IMG/VR virus record: IMGVR_UViG_3300010148_000041
Span: 1-36,469 of that record
Strand: one strand, 5' to 3'
Origin: a virus
DNA: 36,469 bases
Numbering within the stretch: position 1 is the first letter of the stretch; the number at the start of each line of letters is the position of its first letter. Shown in pieces: positions 101 through 7,790 of the stretch. The translations under genes were made by a program, and so were the position numbers. The notes below the pieces were generated by a model. That model saw nothing but the letters and a program-made list of their open reading frames with translations, made no database searches and was not told the DNA's origin.

Positions 101-2464
101 TTAATTTTTCCTTGTAGCTAGAGAGACGTTCGCCCGAAGCGCAGCAATATCTTCATCAGATTCTATTTCTGCCCGAGCAAGTTGAGCTTGCTGTTGAAGT
201 TTAGCGGCTTCAAGTTGAGCTTTTTGTTGATCTGCTGCAGCTTTACGTTGTACTTCAGCTTGTTGTATCTGAAGCTCTTGTTGTTTCAACATAACAATAG
301 GATCAGATTGTCCTGTCCCAGCTGCTTGTTGAGCCATTTGACTAATTTGTTGAGTAGCCATTGCTGTTGCCTCCGCTAATGCTGCCTCTTGTTGTGGATC
401 CATTACCATGCCCTCAGCAGGTATAGGACGACCAATAATCTGCTCTACCTGTTGCTTATACTTCATACCCAAATGCTCTTGCATGTGCGCCATCAAAACT
501 TGACTAGCGACCTGATTCTTTTGTATATTTGGGTCTTGTAAAAATGCAGAATGTGTAGCAACGTGAGCGTCGTGGTTCTGACTTTCAAACGCTTTTAACG
601 GCTTGCCTATTAAAGAATCTATGTTTTCACTTACAGGGTCTTTAGGTATTGCCTCATCCTTTGGCGGTAATATATCATCTATATTTTGTATTCCTAAAGC
701 AGAATACATCCTACGGTACGCTTCATGTAGATCATGTATTTGCGGAGCAGTTTGCGCCATTTGTAGTTGAGTTTGCGCCATAGTCACCCTTTGACTCATA
801 CTAAACATCGCAGGATCACTCACTGGCACTACATCAATTCTATCGTCGAAATCATCTATTTTAGCTTCAGAATTAGCATTAGGTACTTTGTAGGGATAAG
901 AATTAGGAAGAAAATTCTTTATAACTTCTGCTAAGATACGAAGTTCTTGCCTCTGAGCGTAGTGAAGACGCTTATGGATAGCTGATAAAATCTTTGTGCC
1001 TTGTTCTAATAAGGCCACTGTTGTGCCTACAGGGTTCGCCTGACTCCCTTCGCCTACGTTTAGGTCAGTTACAGAGGCAAAACGTCTACCGCTTTCTATG
1101 AGGACGCCTAGCATCTGTAAAAGGGTGCCAGACGGCTCTTTATACGGTAAAGGCATGATTGCCTCGCGTATAGACGATCCTGGAGCATCTACATCTCTAA
1201 ATTCTCCAGGCTGTAGGGGCAAGTCTTCATCGCGAACACGTAATCCTCTTGCTTTAAACCCAGCAGGTAGATTAGCTAATGTTCCTGCATCAATGAGCTG
1301 ACGTAAAATAGAAGTTGCTGATTTAGTTAAGCCCCCAATCATATGTATGAGGCCAAAACCATAAAATCCCAATCCTGGCATGAATTTATAATGGGTAAAA
1401 TAACGAATTTTTCTCTTTTTAGCGTCATCTTTTTTGTAATTACGACGAATAGATAAAATTTCATTACTGTCTTCGTGAATCGTTACAATATATGGAACAG
1501 CTATGCCTGTTTCTTCTCCGTCTTCGTCCACATGCCCAAATCCTGGAAGATCAAGGTCAACGTGCATTTCTAAAAGGGTAATACTGTCTTCGTTTTGTAT
1601 TGTTCTACGAAATCCAGTTAAATCTGCAACTTTTTCTTTAGCTTCGTTTTCATTTAGAGAGGCACTATCTTCTTGTATTTCTGTTTCTCTATAAAACCCG
1701 TCAACTTGTAACTTGAGAATATCATTCGAGTTCATAGTTACAGAATGTGTGATCCGAGGGCAAGTATCTAAATTAGACTCAGTGTACGAAACGACTAAGT
1801 CGTCAGGCATTACAAACTTACTAACTGGTCTATTAAGAGTAGGGTCAAAATAAGTCTTTTTAAACGTAGACCCAGAAAGAGGAAGGTAAAACAACATCTG
1901 GTCTAGCTCTGGATCATACTCTTCCATGACATCTAGAACCATAAAGTTCATATAATTACGAACACGTTCCGCTTGTTCCTCTATCTCTCGGGTATGCTCG
2001 CCTATAATCCGTGTTTGTACTGGTCCTCCTGGAGGGATCAGCTCTTTGTAGGCTTGCGCTTGGAACTGGGTCGCAGCTTCTGCAAGTAACGGATGGGTAA
2101 CGCCAGAAGCCCCTCTAAACGGCTCATCTCGATCTTCCGTCTTAACACCCAAAAGGTCCAAACCGTCTGTATATGCATCCAACCAATCTTGACGCGACTC
2201 CAAATCGTCTTTGTAAGACGCAATAAGGTCTGAAGAAAGCTCTTGAAGGTCTCTTTCGTCCATTTCTTCAGCGAGGTTAACGTAGAAATCACCTTCTTCA
2301 TCATTTTCATCCTCTTCAACATATCCAACAATCGCGCCACCGTCTTCTAACATTACAGTGTCGTCTTCAGAGAAAAGAGAGGGCTGTTCTTCCTCTACAA
2401 CTTCTATTTCAAGCTCTTCTGAGGGTGTTTCAACCAGTTGTGCAATAGATTTTTCAACAGCCAT
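101..2464 (-). CDS. Portal protein, P22-type
   Basis: A 787-residue protein that would form the dodecameric ring at the capsid vertex, through which DNA is packaged and ejected and to which the terminase docks. The first 70 residues are very acidic. A portal core follows, with a block near residues 105-145 (RGASGVTHPLLAEAATQFQA), a wing/clip region rich in aromatic and charged residues, and a helical stem near 440-540 (GTTVALLEQGTKILSAI). From about residue 680 to the end the protein is Gln/Ala-rich and probably coiled coil, like the C-terminal barrel of P22-type portals. The length fits the long P22-like portal class. The ATG has a good Shine-Dalgarno site (GAGGTAAGTT-ATG). It lies 8 bases after the large terminase gene, the usual terminase-portal order. 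The call rests on recalled family features and context, not on an alignment. Confidence 0.88.
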   Translation of the reverse strand: MAVEKSIAQLVETPSEELEIEVVEEEQPSLFSEDDTVMLEDGGAIVGYVEEDENDEEGDFYVNLAEEMDERDLQELSSDLIASYKDDLESRQDWLDAYTDGLDLLGVKTEDRDEPFRGASGVTHPLLAEAATQFQAQAYKELIPPGGPVQTRIIGEHTREIEEQAERVRNYMNFMVLDVMEEYDPELDQMLFYLPLSGSTFKKTYFDPTLNRPVSKFVMPDDLVVSYTESNLDTCPRITHSVTMNSNDILKLQVDGFYRETEIQEDSASLNENEAKEKVADLTGFRRTIQNEDSITLLEMHVDLDLPGFGHVDEDGEETGIAVPYIVTIHEDSNEILSIRRNYKKDDAKKRKIRYFTHYKFMPGLGFYGFGLIHMIGGLTKSATSILRQLIDAGTLANLPAGFKARGLRVRDEDLPLQPGEFRDVDAPGSSIREAIMPLPYKEPSGTLLQMLGVLIESGRRFASVTDLNVGEGSQANPVGTTVALLEQGTKILSAIHKRLHYAQRQELRILAEVIKNFLPNSYPYKVPNANSEAKIDDFDDRIDVVPVSDPAMFSMSQRVTMAQTQLQMAQTAPQIHDLHEAYRRMYSALGIQNIDDILPPKDEAIPKDPVSENIDSLIGKPLKAFESQNHDAHVATHSAFLQDPNIQKNQVASQVLMAHMQEHLGMKYKQQVEQIIGRPIPAEGMVMDPQQEAALAEATAMATQQISQMAQQAAGTGQSDPIVMLKQQELQIQQAEVQRKAAADQQKAQLEAAKLQQQAQLARAEIESDEDIAALRANVSLATRKN

Positions 2465-2472
2465 AACTTACC

Positions 2473-3954
2473 TCAATAATATGTAAAACTTTTTAGTTTA
2501 TAATCTAGTTCATCATCTTCGTAATCGGAGGGTTGACGTATAAACCCACCCTGCCTAAAGCGCAAAAGGGCTTGCGTCGTAGAATCGACCAAATCGTCGT
2601 TTTCTCCGTTAGGGAATTCACATAATTCTTCGATAAGTTCCTCTCCGAACCTCGTTTCTGGTACCCAGACCAGTCCAGACTCGAAAATGGGTGCCACAGC
2701 GTTAGTCCGAGCAATTTTATCATTCCCTCTAGTAGGTGTATAATTTTGTACGGGTATGCCCATAGCCCTCAATTCCTGAGTTAAAGGCATCCCAGAGGCT
2801 TTCGCTTCGATAATAACTGAATCAGGCTCCCAATGTATATAACTTTCGTAAGCGATTTTCTTTAACTGAGGAAAATCAAGCCTATCTTTGACGGAATCTA
2901 GTAAAACTATGTGGTAATTACCGTGGTCCTCGTCGTTTTTAAAGACTCCCCACGTTGTAATTGCACTAAAATCCGCTTTTTCGTTCTTTGAAAACGCTGT
3001 ATCATAACTTTGTATTATGTATTCGGGGATAGGAGGCTCAATTTTGTCCCAAGTCATAATCCATTCACGTTTTATAATGGCACCTTCGCCACCAGTAGGC
3101 TGTTGCATCCACTGTGCAGCCCATTTTGCGTGTGGCAAAGAAGCACGAACTCCTTCTAACTCCTCAATTTTCCAAAATTCAGGCCAACAAGGGTTCCCAG
3201 AGGGCATAATTGCAGGAAATTCTATAACTTCCCATTGATCAGCCTTTGGATCAAGGGCTTGAGCCTTAATTAGCTGGCCTGTTAGGTCTTTTTTCGACCA
3301 TCTTGTCATAACAAGAATGATTGTTCCTCCAGGCTGGAGACGCTGACGAGGACCAGACGTATACCATTCATACGCTGATTCCATCGCCGTTTCGCTCATC
3401 GCATCTTGTTCCGAGTGGGGGTCATCAATTATAAGAACATCAGCACCACGACCAGTAATCGCACCGCCAACACCAGCCGCAAAGTATTCTCCGCCTTTTG
3501 CCGTCTCCCATCTTCCTGCAGCTTTAGAGTCTGCTCTTAGAGAAACGTCAGGAAATACCTTTTTATAATCATCGGTATCTACAAGGTCACGAATTTTACG
3601 ACCAAAACGTACAGCCAACTCGCCTGTGTGCGTAGCTTGAATAATTTTTAGATCAGGTTTAAGACCCAAGAGCCAAGATGGAAGCATATAGGACGACATT
3701 TCTGATTTCGAATGTCGTGGACCCATATTAATAATTACACGTTTTAATTCACCTCTAGCTACGCGATTAAACGTCTGCGACATTTTACGGTGATGGTAGC
3801 CTTCAATAAATGATGGCCACATTAACCTAACGAAACTTAAAAAATCGTCGCGTGATTGTTTACGAACTTCGCGTTGTTTTAATTCTTCGGCGATTATAAA
3901 CGCTTGTTCCGCTTTTTCGCGAGGAAGGTGGGAAAAATCTAAATTATCAAGCAT
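2473..3954 (-). CDS. terL: Terminase large subunit (packaging ATPase and nuclease)
   Basis: A 493-residue DNA-packaging motor. The N-terminal ATPase has a variant Walker A, GPRHSKSE at residues 78-85, as in many phage terminases. Walker B with the catalytic acidic pair is VLIIDDP at 173-179, and a coupling motif is VMTRWS near 215-220. The C-terminal RNase H-fold nuclease shows the expected acidic triad: D318 in SYDTAF, E383 in IIEAKASG, and D453/D454/D457 in NDDLVDS. It would cut concatemeric DNA and pump it through the portal encoded next. The start codon shares one base with the stop of the upstream gene (TAATG). The small subunit is not adjacent; it is encoded about 6 kb upstream at 10168-10809. 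Confidence 0.95.
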   Translation of the reverse strand: MLDNLDFSHLPREKAEQAFIIAEELKQREVRKQSRDDFLSFVRLMWPSFIEGYHHRKMSQTFNRVARGELKRVIINMGPRHSKSEMSSYMLPSWLLGLKPDLKIIQATHTGELAVRFGRKIRDLVDTDDYKKVFPDVSLRADSKAAGRWETAKGGEYFAAGVGGAITGRGADVLIIDDPHSEQDAMSETAMESAYEWYTSGPRQRLQPGGTIILVMTRWSKKDLTGQLIKAQALDPKADQWEVIEFPAIMPSGNPCWPEFWKIEELEGVRASLPHAKWAAQWMQQPTGGEGAIIKREWIMTWDKIEPPIPEYIIQSYDTAFSKNEKADFSAITTWGVFKNDEDHGNYHIVLLDSVKDRLDFPQLKKIAYESYIHWEPDSVIIEAKASGMPLTQELRAMGIPVQNYTPTRGNDKIARTNAVAPIFESGLVWVPETRFGEELIEELCEFPNGENDDLVDSTTQALLRFRQGGFIRQPSDYEDDELDYKLKSFTYY

Positions 3955-5111
3955 TAATCACCCATCTCTGGAAACAGCTTGGAGGATTTGTCAGAGTAAT
4001 AGTCCCTATCCGTGCGGAAGGTCGTACTAGGGTCTGGATCTTTCATTGGCGCACCCATATAGGATGGTCTTGATATAGCTAACTCTCTTTGCATATCCAT
4101 ATCGACTAAAAATCCTGGCTCTGGATCTACATCATAAAGACTATCTATATTTTTAGATTTTAAAACAGTATTAATTTCATCGTCTACTTTTTCTATAGCT
4201 TTCCGTAAAGTCATTCCTGGGTTTTGATCCATAAAATCTTCAAGTAATTCTAAACTAATTGGAGACGATAACGCTTCTCCTGCGTCACCTTCCCTTTCAA
4301 CTAACTCTACAAGTTCTTGTTTTTTAACACGTACCGGCTCAGAAAAATCTCTTAAAGCATCATCTATTTTTAATTCCTCCCCTGCATCATCTAAAAGTGG
4401 GGGTAATCGTGGTCCAGCTAATCTAGGCATTCCTGCTAATTCTTTTAATTCTGTTTTTAATTCATTTAAATGATATATACCTTGTAAATCCCCTTTAGGA
4501 GAATCTTTTGTTAAGTAAAAAACATTACGAAGTTGGTTTTGTACAAAAGGTAAATTATCCAAGAGCGAAGAACCAGTAACCTTGGGTAATGTTTTTGCAG
4601 CAGCTTTTGTAGCTGTCGCCGCGCCCATCGGTAAATCACCGATTACTTTTGCAATTCCTGTTGCGGCTATCGGTAAAGCTGCAATCCCTTGCGTAACTTT
4701 CCGACGATCTAAATCAACGTCTTTAGTAGGACTACCTTTCGGCAACATCCGCTTTATACCTTTAGCCATAAGCGCAGTTGCTGGAAACGCTTCAAGCGCA
4801 CTTAAGCTAACCGTCGCAGCTCCAATACCTTTTCCAACTAAATCATCAGCACGTTTAAATTCTCGCGCTCCTTCTTGGCCACCATATAACGCTTCGGCTG
4901 GTGAAAAAGTAGCCGCGCCTAATGAACCTAAAATCGACTCTGCGTTAGGGTTTCCGAAAATATCTTGGGCTAATTCAACAGCTTTATAATTATCCATACC
5001 AAATTTATCGCGTAATAAATTTGCTACAGTCCTAGTAGACCGTTCACGAAACGTAGGATTATACGCTTGTATCCCTGTTGCTTTCGATAATATTTCTTCG
5101 CTAGTTTTCAT
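3954..5111 (-). CDS. Probable virion-associated protein, function unknown
   Basis: A 385-residue protein not recognised as a named family. The N-terminal 60 residues are polar (MKTSEEILSKATGIQAYNP). Residues from about 65 to 195 are Ala/Gly-rich and amphipathic to hydrophobic, with stretches such as GIGAATVSLSALEAFPATAL. The C-terminal half is acidic and rich in Leu and Pro. This composition is common in internal or ejected virion proteins of podoviruses that interact with membranes. It is sandwiched between large terminase (one-base overlap) and another unknown virion-type gene (2-base gap), so it belongs to the late transcript. An internal or ejection protein is the best guess by composition and position only. 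Confidence 0.75.
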   Translation of the reverse strand: MKTSEEILSKATGIQAYNPTFRERSTRTVANLLRDKFGMDNYKAVELAQDIFGNPNAESILGSLGAATFSPAEALYGGQEGAREFKRADDLVGKGIGAATVSLSALEAFPATALMAKGIKRMLPKGSPTKDVDLDRRKVTQGIAALPIAATGIAKVIGDLPMGAATATKAAAKTLPKVTGSSLLDNLPFVQNQLRNVFYLTKDSPKGDLQGIYHLNELKTELKELAGMPRLAGPRLPPLLDDAGEELKIDDALRDFSEPVRVKKQELVELVEREGDAGEALSSPISLELLEDFMDQNPGMTLRKAIEKVDDEINTVLKSKNIDSLYDVDPEPGFLVDMDMQRELAISRPSYMGAPMKDPDPSTTFRTDRDYYSDKSSKLFPEMGD

Positions 5112-5113
5112 AA

Positions 5114-5899
5114 TTACATCGCGTCTAATGGCACTGCGCTACGCATTTCTCCAGATGCCTTTTTCGCATCCTCTGATCTTTCCTGCTGCATTTTAGCAAC
5201 AGTCATTTTAAAATTATTATAAATAGTATCAAATTGTTCAGGATCCATCCGATAAAAAACATCAGGGTCTACGCCCATAGCTTGACCAACTTCTTCCTCA
5301 GCATCTAATCCTGTTTCGGTTGCTCCTGTTATAGCATCTATTGGTAATCCGGCAAGACCAAAAGCTGCTTTAGGTAATGCTCTTGCGGCTCCAGTTAAAG
5401 CAGCTATTCCAATATTACCACGTTTAAATGTTTCGCCAATATCTATTGGACCTTTTTTATCAAAAACCCCTTCTTGTATCGTCGATTTTAACATAAAGTT
5501 AAAACGATCACGATCAAGAGTTCCTTCGTCTAATTGTTTTTTAACTGAAGTATGAAAATCATCAATCTCATTTAAATCTTTAAAATAAATATTTTCAGCT
5601 TTAGATTTTTCAACACCGTTTTTTAAATTAAAGGTAAGTGCCGATTTAGCGTGTTGGTATCTTGCTTTCCTAGCCGCCTCGATTATTTCGTCAGGACTAA
5701 CGTCCATCGTCCTTGTAACTGCGCCGCCAAGTATAGAAGGACTTTTATCAAACGGATAGCGTTTAGCTTTATCAGCTGTAAAACCATACCAACGACCAAC
5801 GGCATCTTCATCAGGAGATAACGTCTGGCCAAGACCTTTAATTAAGTTCTCACCTCGAAAAGCTCTAATACTTTGATCAGGCGTAACTTTATCAGACAT
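5114..5899 (-). CDS. Probable virion protein with an ADP-ribosyltransferase-like N-terminal motif
   Basis: A 261-residue protein if translated from the ATG at 5899, which overlaps the previous stop by 8 bases (ATGTCTGA). A GTG at 5917 would add six residues and is less likely. The N-terminal 75 residues show a run of motifs often seen in phage ART-like domains: FRGE at 14-17, then GRWYGFTADKAKRYPF at 35-50, then a beta-strand-like AVTRTMDVSPDEI. The middle is helical and charged. Residues around 160-190 are Ala/Gly-rich and hydrophobic (GIAALTGAARALPKAAFGLA). If the ART assignment holds, the protein could be carried in the virion and injected. A purely structural role is the alternative. Confidence 0.72.
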   Translation of the reverse strand: MSDKVTPDQSIRAFRGENLIKGLGQTLSPDEDAVGRWYGFTADKAKRYPFDKSPSILGGAVTRTMDVSPDEIIEAARKARYQHAKSALTFNLKNGVEKSKAENIYFKDLNEIDDFHTSVKKQLDEGTLDRDRFNFMLKSTIQEGVFDKKGPIDIGETFKRGNIGIAALTGAARALPKAAFGLAGLPIDAITGATETGLDAEEEVGQAMGVDPDVFYRMDPEQFDTIYNNFKMTVAKMQQERSEDAKKASGEMRSAVPLDAM

Positions 5900-7790
5900 T
5901 TCTAGTAGGGATTCCACCTATCCCATAATAAGGACGAATTGGACCCATCATCAAAGGAGGGAATCCTGAATTAGAATTAGAGGGAGGACTAAACGGACTG
6001 TTCAATCGTGGCAGTGGATACCCTCCTGCATAACCTGCATAAACTTCTGGTAAATTTTGTACAGGGTCAAATATAAAACCGCCCTTTGGACCTTGATATT
6101 TTTCTTGACCGAAAAGATCATCTGGTGAAGTTATCTCGTCAACTGGTTCTTCTGGGTCTCTAATAATATCCTCTTGGTCACTTTCTCCTGCTCCATCTCT
6201 TCCACCACCTTCTGGGTATTGGTTTTGATTTTGACCATATCTTTCGTTATAACTACTTTCACCACCAAATAACCGTTCAAGAAAATTAGGACGATCATAA
6301 ATTCCTACATCTACTTGAGCATTAGCACCGCTAGTTAATCCAGGAATATCAGGTTGTTTGTTAACTAAACCTGTAGCTAATTCCGAAGCTCTATCTATAG
6401 CTCTCGTTCCCGCACCACCCGTTGCTACATTAAATAATTGACCTAATCCCCCTTGACCAGGAGCAGATACAAAAGGTTGCCCGTCTGGTCCTGGCTGACC
6501 TTCGATCCCTAATTCTCTATTAAGACCAAAAGCTGCTTCAAGACCCGCTAACGGTATCCCCATTGGAGTCATAGCAAAAAGACCTCTTGCTACCAGTTCC
6601 GAATCACTCATTTCACGGGGTCTACCAACAACACGTCCGAGATCAGTTATATCACCTTCACTTAATCCAGGACGAATTGTATTTGGCTGTCTATATCTTG
6701 AAGAATCTTCGCCTAATTTATCAGCATAATCCGCATAAGTTACAACTTGCTGAGGTTTGTCCGTTTCTTGTAATATTTGTTGCCTTTCGTATTCAGCCTT
6801 TTCTGCAGGACTAAGGTTATAGTTCTTCATAGTTACGAACATTTTCCCTTGGCCATAAGGGTCTTTATATCTTTCATATGCTTGCTGGCGATAAAAATCT
6901 TGTTGGCCTTTAGTCATACCCGCTCTTTTATCACCAACCTTTAAACCTAAAGCTCTTTGCGCAGCAGTAATTCCTCGACCAAACGCCGTTGAACTTCCCG
7001 CAGCAGGATTATCACCCCTCGGATTAGTATCCGTAATTCCCGCAATTCTTTCAAATTCAGATTGGGTAAAACCTTTATTATCCGTTAAAAAATCACCCTC
7101 TTCATCAAAAGTATCTTTGCTAGGATCATAACTTCCTGATCTTCTTTGTTGATCTAAATCGGCTGCTGTAAGGGGAACACTTTGACTTCTTGCATTTAAA
7201 AAATCAAATAAAGGTTCTGTAACAGGTCCAGTGTAGGGTTTCCCTCCTTTTAGAAACTCTTGTGATGAGAAATCTGGTGTTCGACCAACACGACGGCCAA
7301 AATTTTGAGCATTAGGATATTGAGGGTTTATATTTAAATAATCATCATATGGAGAAGGAGGAGTAGCTTGGTCTCTAGCAAAGTCAAGTGCTTGCTTTCT
7401 CGCTCGCGCAGCATCTTCCGATTGACGATTTTGTTCTTGACGCTGTTGTTCTTGTTGTTGAGCAGCTAGTTCATCACGGTATCTATTAAGAGTATCTTCC
7501 ATCCCCCCGCGATCTTGACCGCCGCCGCCACCACCACCTGTGGCACCTCCACTAGGCGAATAAGTATCAGAGGTTACACTGTCTTGACCCTCATTCATAC
7601 CGCCGCCACCATAATCGTCAAAACTGTCGATGCCGTAACTTTCGTCAATATCATCATAAGCAGGAATACCCATTGGTCCTGGTCTGCCAGACCCTCCTAA
7701 AAACTTCAAAATATCAGCCTCCTCAGGCGTGATATATGACAATATATGATCCTGACCACGAATGTCAGCACGACGAGGGGGATTGCTCAT
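5892..7790 (-). CDS. Large Gly/Pro/Gln-rich probable virion protein
   Basis: A 632-residue, mostly low-complexity and probably disordered protein. The N-terminus carries the phrase ITPEEADILKFLGGSG (residues 20-35), which I recall from the starts of internal or tail-associated virion proteins of podovirus-like phages. A Gly-rich run lies near 85-95, a Gln/Arg-rich helical stretch near 100-135, and Pro/Gly/Asn-rich sequence occupies the C-terminus. It is the first gene of the late transcript running to the portal. It has a near-perfect ribosome site, TTGGAGG seven bases before ATG. No enzymatic motif was seen. Structural or ejection-associated is inferred from position and composition. Confidence 0.75.
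   Translation of the reverse strand: MSNPPRRADIRGQDHILSYITPEEADILKFLGGSGRPGPMGIPAYDDIDESYGIDSFDDYGGGGMNEGQDSVTSDTYSPSGGATGGGGGGGQDRGGMEDTLNRYRDELAAQQQEQQRQEQNRQSEDAARARKQALDFARDQATPPSPYDDYLNINPQYPNAQNFGRRVGRTPDFSSQEFLKGGKPYTGPVTEPLFDFLNARSQSVPLTAADLDQQRRSGSYDPSKDTFDEEGDFLTDNKGFTQSEFERIAGITDTNPRGDNPAAGSSTAFGRGITAAQRALGLKVGDKRAGMTKGQQDFYRQQAYERYKDPYGQGKMFVTMKNYNLSPAEKAEYERQQILQETDKPQQVVTYADYADKLGEDSSRYRQPNTIRPGLSEGDITDLGRVVGRPREMSDSELVARGLFAMTPMGIPLAGLEAAFGLNRELGIEGQPGPDGQPFVSAPGQGGLGQLFNVATGGAGTRAIDRASELATGLVNKQPDIPGLTSGANAQVDVGIYDRPNFLERLFGGESSYNERYGQNQNQYPEGGGRDGAGESDQEDIIRDPEEPVDEITSPDDLFGQEKYQGPKGGFIFDPVQNLPEVYAGYAGGYPLPRLNSPFSPPSNSNSGFPPLMMGPIRPYYGIGGIPTRNV

Follow-up and report, generated by a model that had tools for sequence, protein, structure and literature searches.

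A predicted late protein of marine phages with an ADP-ribosyltransferase-like N-terminus that is probably not an ADP-ribosyltransferase

We analysed a gene upstream of the terminase in a viral DNA of 36,469 nucleotides (IMG/VR record IMGVR_UViG_3300010148_000041); the whole stretch is called the window, and the gene and its product are called the window gene and the window protein. Sequence comparison places the window protein in an unannotated, lineage-specific family of marine phages related to HTVC023P and CRP-901, and its N-terminus carries a conserved motif resembling the front half of ADP-ribosyltransferases (ARTs). At slightly less than even confidence, we suggest that it is associated with the virion, probably lacks enzyme activity and has a front end like that of an ART. 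Judging from the alignments and the predicted structures, it is probably not an ART enzyme.

The window gene and its surroundings

The open reading frame is real and its coordinates had been given correctly by the first-pass annotation, which left out that it lies on the minus strand (Table 1); the plus strand across the same interval was full of stops in a reading-frame check. The ATG at 5899 is a likelier start than the GTG at 5917, because MSD/MSE recurs at the same place in the relatives on contigs L002, L024 and L028. Residue numbers of the window protein nevertheless follow the GTG numbering throughout. Most relatives are longer at the N-terminus by about 24-40 residues, part of them predicted to be helical; the window copy (5899-5917 and upstream) does not have this extension.

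Table 1. Features of the window and of the window protein (positions in the window; residues in GTG numbering).
Feature	Position	Strand	Basis
Portal protein	101..2464	-	phrog_1216, E 1.4e-53
Terminase large subunit (TerL)	2473..3954	-	phrog_38, E 4.8e-108
385-aa neighbour, constant N-module and exchangeable C-terminus	3954..5111	-	family alignment
Constant N-module of the neighbour, about 125 aa	4698..5072	-	alignment; 27 IMG/VR loci; CRP-3 gp36
Window gene	5114..5899	-	261 aa from the ATG; 267 aa from the GTG at 5917
Gly/Ala/Pro-rich, mildly hydrophobic segment, residues 171-199	5321..5407	-	hydropathy
Three helices, residues 75-149, at the place of strands 4-6 and the catalytic acid of an ART	5471..5695	-	AlphaFold2, both models
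GGAVTRTMDV, residues 64-73, predicted strand	5699..5728	-	G65 and T68 invariant; strand at 66-73
GRWYGFTADKAKRYPF, residues 41-56, strand 2/helix motif of ART-like type	5750..5797	-	G41, K50, A51, Y54 and P55 invariant
FRGE, residues 20-23, predicted strand 1	5849..5860	-	R21 and G22 in 20/20; E23 is E or D; strand in both models
632-aa upstream neighbour, short leader known from other phage lineages	5892..7790	-	sequence comparison

In the order of transcription, the 632-aa gene is followed by the window gene, the 385-aa gene, TerL and the portal gene. The portal protein is 46-50% identical to those of Phage DSL-LC04, the pelagiphages HTVC023P and HTVC027P, and the roseophages CRP-901 and CRP-902. 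Phage DSL-LC04 encodes a PcfJ-like protein between TerL and portal (L005 9406-11883; PF14284, E 5.2e-9), which is another mobile-element domain beside the terminase. The leader of the glycine-rich 632-aa protein, IRGQDHxLxYITPEEA...GPMGIP, recurs in other lineages (L126 2994-3119; L127 8861-8986), where the copy stands directly after a 726-aa portal-like gene. By eye, a similar stretch opens CRP-901 gp72, and L008 6754-9327 is among the sites listed. This could be a virion-targeting leader.

When we scanned IMG/VR, relatives of the window protein were found on 29 contigs. The gene that follows is the 385-aa gene in 15 of them and TerL in 13, together all 28 contigs that extend beyond the gene; contig L108 breaks off within it and is not part of this count. 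In the accessible parts of PMC5512222, phage polyvalent proteins are described as encoded among portal and terminase genes, near the late genes, and as predicted to be packaged and injected; the window gene or its relative stands among late virion and packaging genes in 28/28 continuing contigs. The accessible text of PMC9503650 argues that ARTs are frequently packaged into virions. Judged by the late-gene context given in these two sources, as far as their accessible parts go, proteins encoded in the slot upstream of TerL are good candidates for delivery, and we infer that the window protein is expressed late and associated with the virion. The accessible parts of PMC10149686, PMC6918029, PMC9599517, PMC9038755 and PMC10386132 contain no virion proteomics for the window protein or its neighbours.

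A lineage-specific protein family

A second IMG/VR scan, seeded with a divergent member, again returned 29 contigs, so the family appears saturated at this sensitivity. All loci together hold 23 distinct sequences, 20 of which carry the N-terminal motif. Among GTDB genomes there were 155 pattern matches, none of them a relative of the window protein. In tblastn searches of named phages, the window protein gave no match at 1e-5, and a fragment and two divergent members gave only weak unrelated matches. The window protein and 15 relatives had no match in Pfam, PHROGs, NCBIfam or PDB sequences beyond scattered weak ones, none of which was to an ART, and a literature search, which was not exhaustive, found no paper on the family.

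The dN/dS values were 0.12-0.42 in six pairs of family members (0.30 for the window gene against L002), and the window protein is therefore under purifying selection. In the comparison with L002, the value is somewhat higher for the N-terminal part (0.39) than for the middle (0.24). L023 and L036, whose TerL proteins are 89% and 86% identical, respectively, do not have the gene and carry others in its place, as expected of an accessory gene.

A conserved ART-like front end

Nine residues are invariant in the 20 distinct sequences that carry the motif (R21, G22, G41, K50, A51, Y54, P55, G65 and T68), and the consensus of the front end reads YRG...GxWY...KAxxYP...GGxVTR. Column 44 is Tyr in 16/20 and Asn in 4/20. 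Column 47, the position of the strand-2 Ser/Thr, is Thr in 14, Ser in one and Asn in five of the sequences, with no S-x-S.

The front end shares the order and spacing of its elements with the ART-PolyVal family (PF18760), whose prototype is the vRNAP of Roseovarius Plymouth podovirus 1. The shared elements are [YF][RH]G, about 20 residues, G-x-aromatic-aromatic, A-x-x-[YF] and then a beta strand. The counterpart in the Roseovarius phage vRNAP, which matches PF18760 at E 9.8e-9, reads YHGT...GLFFTNSLELARDYA. According to the accessible parts of PMC5512222, H-Y-D-type ARTs such as these are the commonest protein-modifying domain of polyvalent proteins. In addition, Y-R-G in strand 1 is common to the window family and T4 Alt/ModB (phrog_832), with R21 conserved in 20/20 and located in a predicted strand. 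Detailed comparison with both groups also revealed differences. First, the window family has Arg instead of the His of the H-Y-D triad in strand 1 (20/20), and the Tyr is not invariant. Second, neither strands 4-6 nor a catalytic Asp of the ART-PolyVal kind is visible in the low-confidence models. Third, unlike Alt/ModB with its R-S-E triad, the window family has no conserved equivalent of S-T-S and no E-x-E.

A loose motif pattern, written post hoc to cover both the window family and known ARTs, matched 61 (redundant) family ORFs and two others among 4016 ORFs, compared with 0.1 matches per pass on shuffled ORFs. Both non-family matches come from the Roseovarius phage vRNAP, a protein with a real ART that is present in two copies. 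This count is modest evidence for the ART likeness of the motif, and the sequence comparisons indicate that the motif of the window protein is more than chance. In 17 distant relatives, a similar motif pattern matched 0/33 ORFs among the large genes that separate TerL from portal.

The catalytic half and the predicted structure

The first-pass annotation had proposed an ART-like motif, of which the front half holds, with RG and A-x-x-Y conserved in 20/20, and a recognisable catalytic half is missing. No E-x-E columns were conserved at 80% or more in the 20 sequences. Asp is conserved in columns 119, 153, 159 and 205, none of which falls in a predicted strand, and the low-confidence models contain no strand 5.

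AlphaFold2 gave a mean pLDDT of 59.7 for the full window protein (15-sequence alignment) and 65.3 for the N-terminal 180 residues of the relative on L019 (18 sequences). Both models show two strands followed by long helices, with block means of 78-91 for much of the helical part; in the full-protein model, the block means are 81-91 for residues 71-140 and 66 for residues 141-150. The helices take the place of the strands that would hold the catalytic acid of an ART (Table 1). A beta-hairpin-like segment, as had been suggested, was not recovered: strands fall on FRGE and GGAVTRTMDV in both models, with no clear hairpin and at low pLDDT.

Foldseek with these low-confidence models returned nothing at E below 0.35 in BFVD or 2.1 in the PDB, and no ART was listed. 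The VIA fold search gave unrelated proteins at Z of at most 6.1 and likewise listed no ART, an absence that excludes nothing. None of 15 family members matched PF18760 at E up to 1, and PDB profile searches, NCBIfam and PHROGs yielded no ART with the window protein or its relatives. Pfam found no domain in the window protein, hence not the two recognisable domains of a polyvalent protein; compared with those proteins it is small (267 aa) and has no second recognisable domain. In an hhalign comparison with ART-PolyVal, the motif columns were freely chosen by the alignment, which was not significant (probability 0.15 on a 0-100 scale, E 0.39). This comparison has no power, because two true ART profiles, ART-PolyVal and ModB, did not find each other in it.

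Structure prediction thus gives helices and no ART match, and it is not decisive since the mean pLDDT is only 60-65. The lack of an ART-like fold or of a catalytic Glu, which had been named as what would speak against an ART, is close to what we found, with no conserved E-x-E and with helices replacing the catalytic strands. Assignment of the window protein as an ART enzyme is not supported, and we infer that it has no enzyme activity. No ART showed significant homology, and the likeness could therefore have arisen by convergence; equally, the front end may descend from an ART.

The middle of the protein had been thought hydrophobic enough for ejection through membranes, a claim that is weakened by the hydropathy values. 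The usual Kyte-Doolittle cut-off is 1.6, and the best 19-residue mean was 1.14 in the window protein; in 17 relatives it ranged over 1.12-1.66, with 13 of them below the cut-off. A relation of the mildly hydrophobic segment (residues 171-199) to part of the N-module of the 385-aa neighbour was considered (hhalign E 0.012, probability 3.7 on a 0-100 scale) and is not relied on.

The 385-aa neighbour and an Alt/ModB-type ART in a sister contig

In the alignment of the 385-aa family, the N-terminus is constant and the C-termini diverge. The N-module is shared with CRP-3 gp36 and present at 27 IMG/VR loci. Members of the family lie at window positions 3954-5111, at L093 1368-2252 and on L007, L128 and L142-L151. 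We examined 29 C-terminal parts (the 27 loci, CRP-3 and CRP-212), three of which (L134, L139 and L146) are contig-cut and too short. The remaining 26 form seven groups by single linkage, an approximate number since the group of L151 is a contig-cut fragment. In having a constant part with exchangeable effector-like parts, and in its place among portal and terminase genes, the 385-aa family resembles the MuF-type polymorphic toxins of temperate phages (PMC5576092) and phage polyvalent proteins (PMC5512222).

In CRP-3-type proteins, the N-module stands after a cell-wall hydrolase domain (PF07486). Closely similar flanks (L142 and L145, 94% and 83% identical) enclose different contents in these proteins: some have no insert, others a methyltransferase-like stretch (PF13489 at best, E 0.001, which misses the cut-off), and others again a phrog_30118 domain. 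The last was seen at E 1e-35 to 8.5e-45 in L144 19-4038, L143 135-4514 and L128 4482-8093, and this cassette is inserted about where CRP-3 has its methyltransferase-like domain.

Contig L093 holds a relative of the window gene immediately upstream of a 385-aa-type gene with a fused ART. The C-terminus of the fused protein matches phrog_832, 'RNA polymerase ADP-ribosylase', at E 5.7e-10, and tblastn gave 7e-11 to an Erwinia phage protein; DRAT and ADPrib_exo_Tox matches were weak and below the Pfam cut-offs. The R, S-F-S and E-x-E elements are intact, and R, S-F and E-x-E are invariant with three phage ModB-type proteins. A search against PDB sequences found no ART in the L093 protein, and NCBIfam recognised none either in it or in the three ModB-type proteins. 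The phrog_832 match and the intact elements make a convincing case that the C-terminus is an Alt/ModB-type ART. An IMG/VR scan with the domain gave one further, very short match only and no second contig with the fusion. The complete ART beside the window-gene relative in L093 shows that effector-type domains do occur at this locus. The analogy with T4 Alt, which had been drawn for the window protein, fits this neighbouring gene and not the window protein itself, and it is plausible for the locus.

Interpretation of the window protein

The window protein would be a late product of the terminase-portal cluster that is most likely packaged in the virion or assembled with it. Its ART-like beta-helix-beta N-terminus may be a degenerate or minimal ART remnant that serves binding rather than catalysis, and the remainder is predicted to be helical with one mildly hydrophobic segment.

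The main rival, which we regard as somewhat unlikely, is a packaging or head-assembly accessory, such as a helper of the terminase or the portal, that does not enter the host and whose ART-like motif arose by convergence. The tight coupling to TerL and portal, with ORFs often overlapping, is consistent with such a role, as are the mostly helical models and the lack of significant ART homology. However, the gene's absence beside TerL proteins that are 86-89% identical would be odd for an essential assembly factor, and polyvalent ARTs have motif columns of this kind too.

A wider proposal, which we consider rather unlikely, is that the slot upstream of TerL is an exchangeable cassette of injected effectors. 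The N-module, which follows the cell-wall hydrolase domain in HMO-2011-type phages, would deliver swapped C-terminal effectors, namely the Alt/ModB-type ART in L093 and the methyltransferase-like and phrog_30118 domains in CRP-3-type proteins. The window protein would belong to this delivered set as a second protein derived from an ART, with helices in place of its catalytic half.

It is improbable that the window protein, as a pseudo-ART, binds NAD or ADP-ribose or acts as a partner or inhibitor of the neighbouring effector, protecting the phage's producing cell. A conserved front half without a catalytic half would suit this role, and wherever the 385-aa effector-like gene occurs, the two ORFs lie close together or overlap, but 13 contigs hold the window gene's relative directly before TerL without a 385-aa gene. 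Least probable is an active ART, injected with the DNA like T4 Alt and with an unusual catalytic centre hidden from alignment and model: the invariant R-G and A-x-x-Y at the right spacing, the loose pattern shared outside the family only with a known ART-bearing gene and the true ART next door in L093 speak for it, but the missing E-x-E, the Asn at the strand-2 Ser/Thr (5/20) and Tyr (4/20) positions, the helices at strands 4-6 and the lack of any family or fold match argue against it.

The window protein represents an unannotated family, and its lineage is related to ocean phages of very high abundance. Should it be delivered along with its neighbour, the two would form a host-directed set for phages whose early host takeover is little known. 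As a candidate delivery module, the N-module predicts, among the unannotated proteins of HTVC023P/CRP-901-related and HMO-2011-type phages, those that may be injected.
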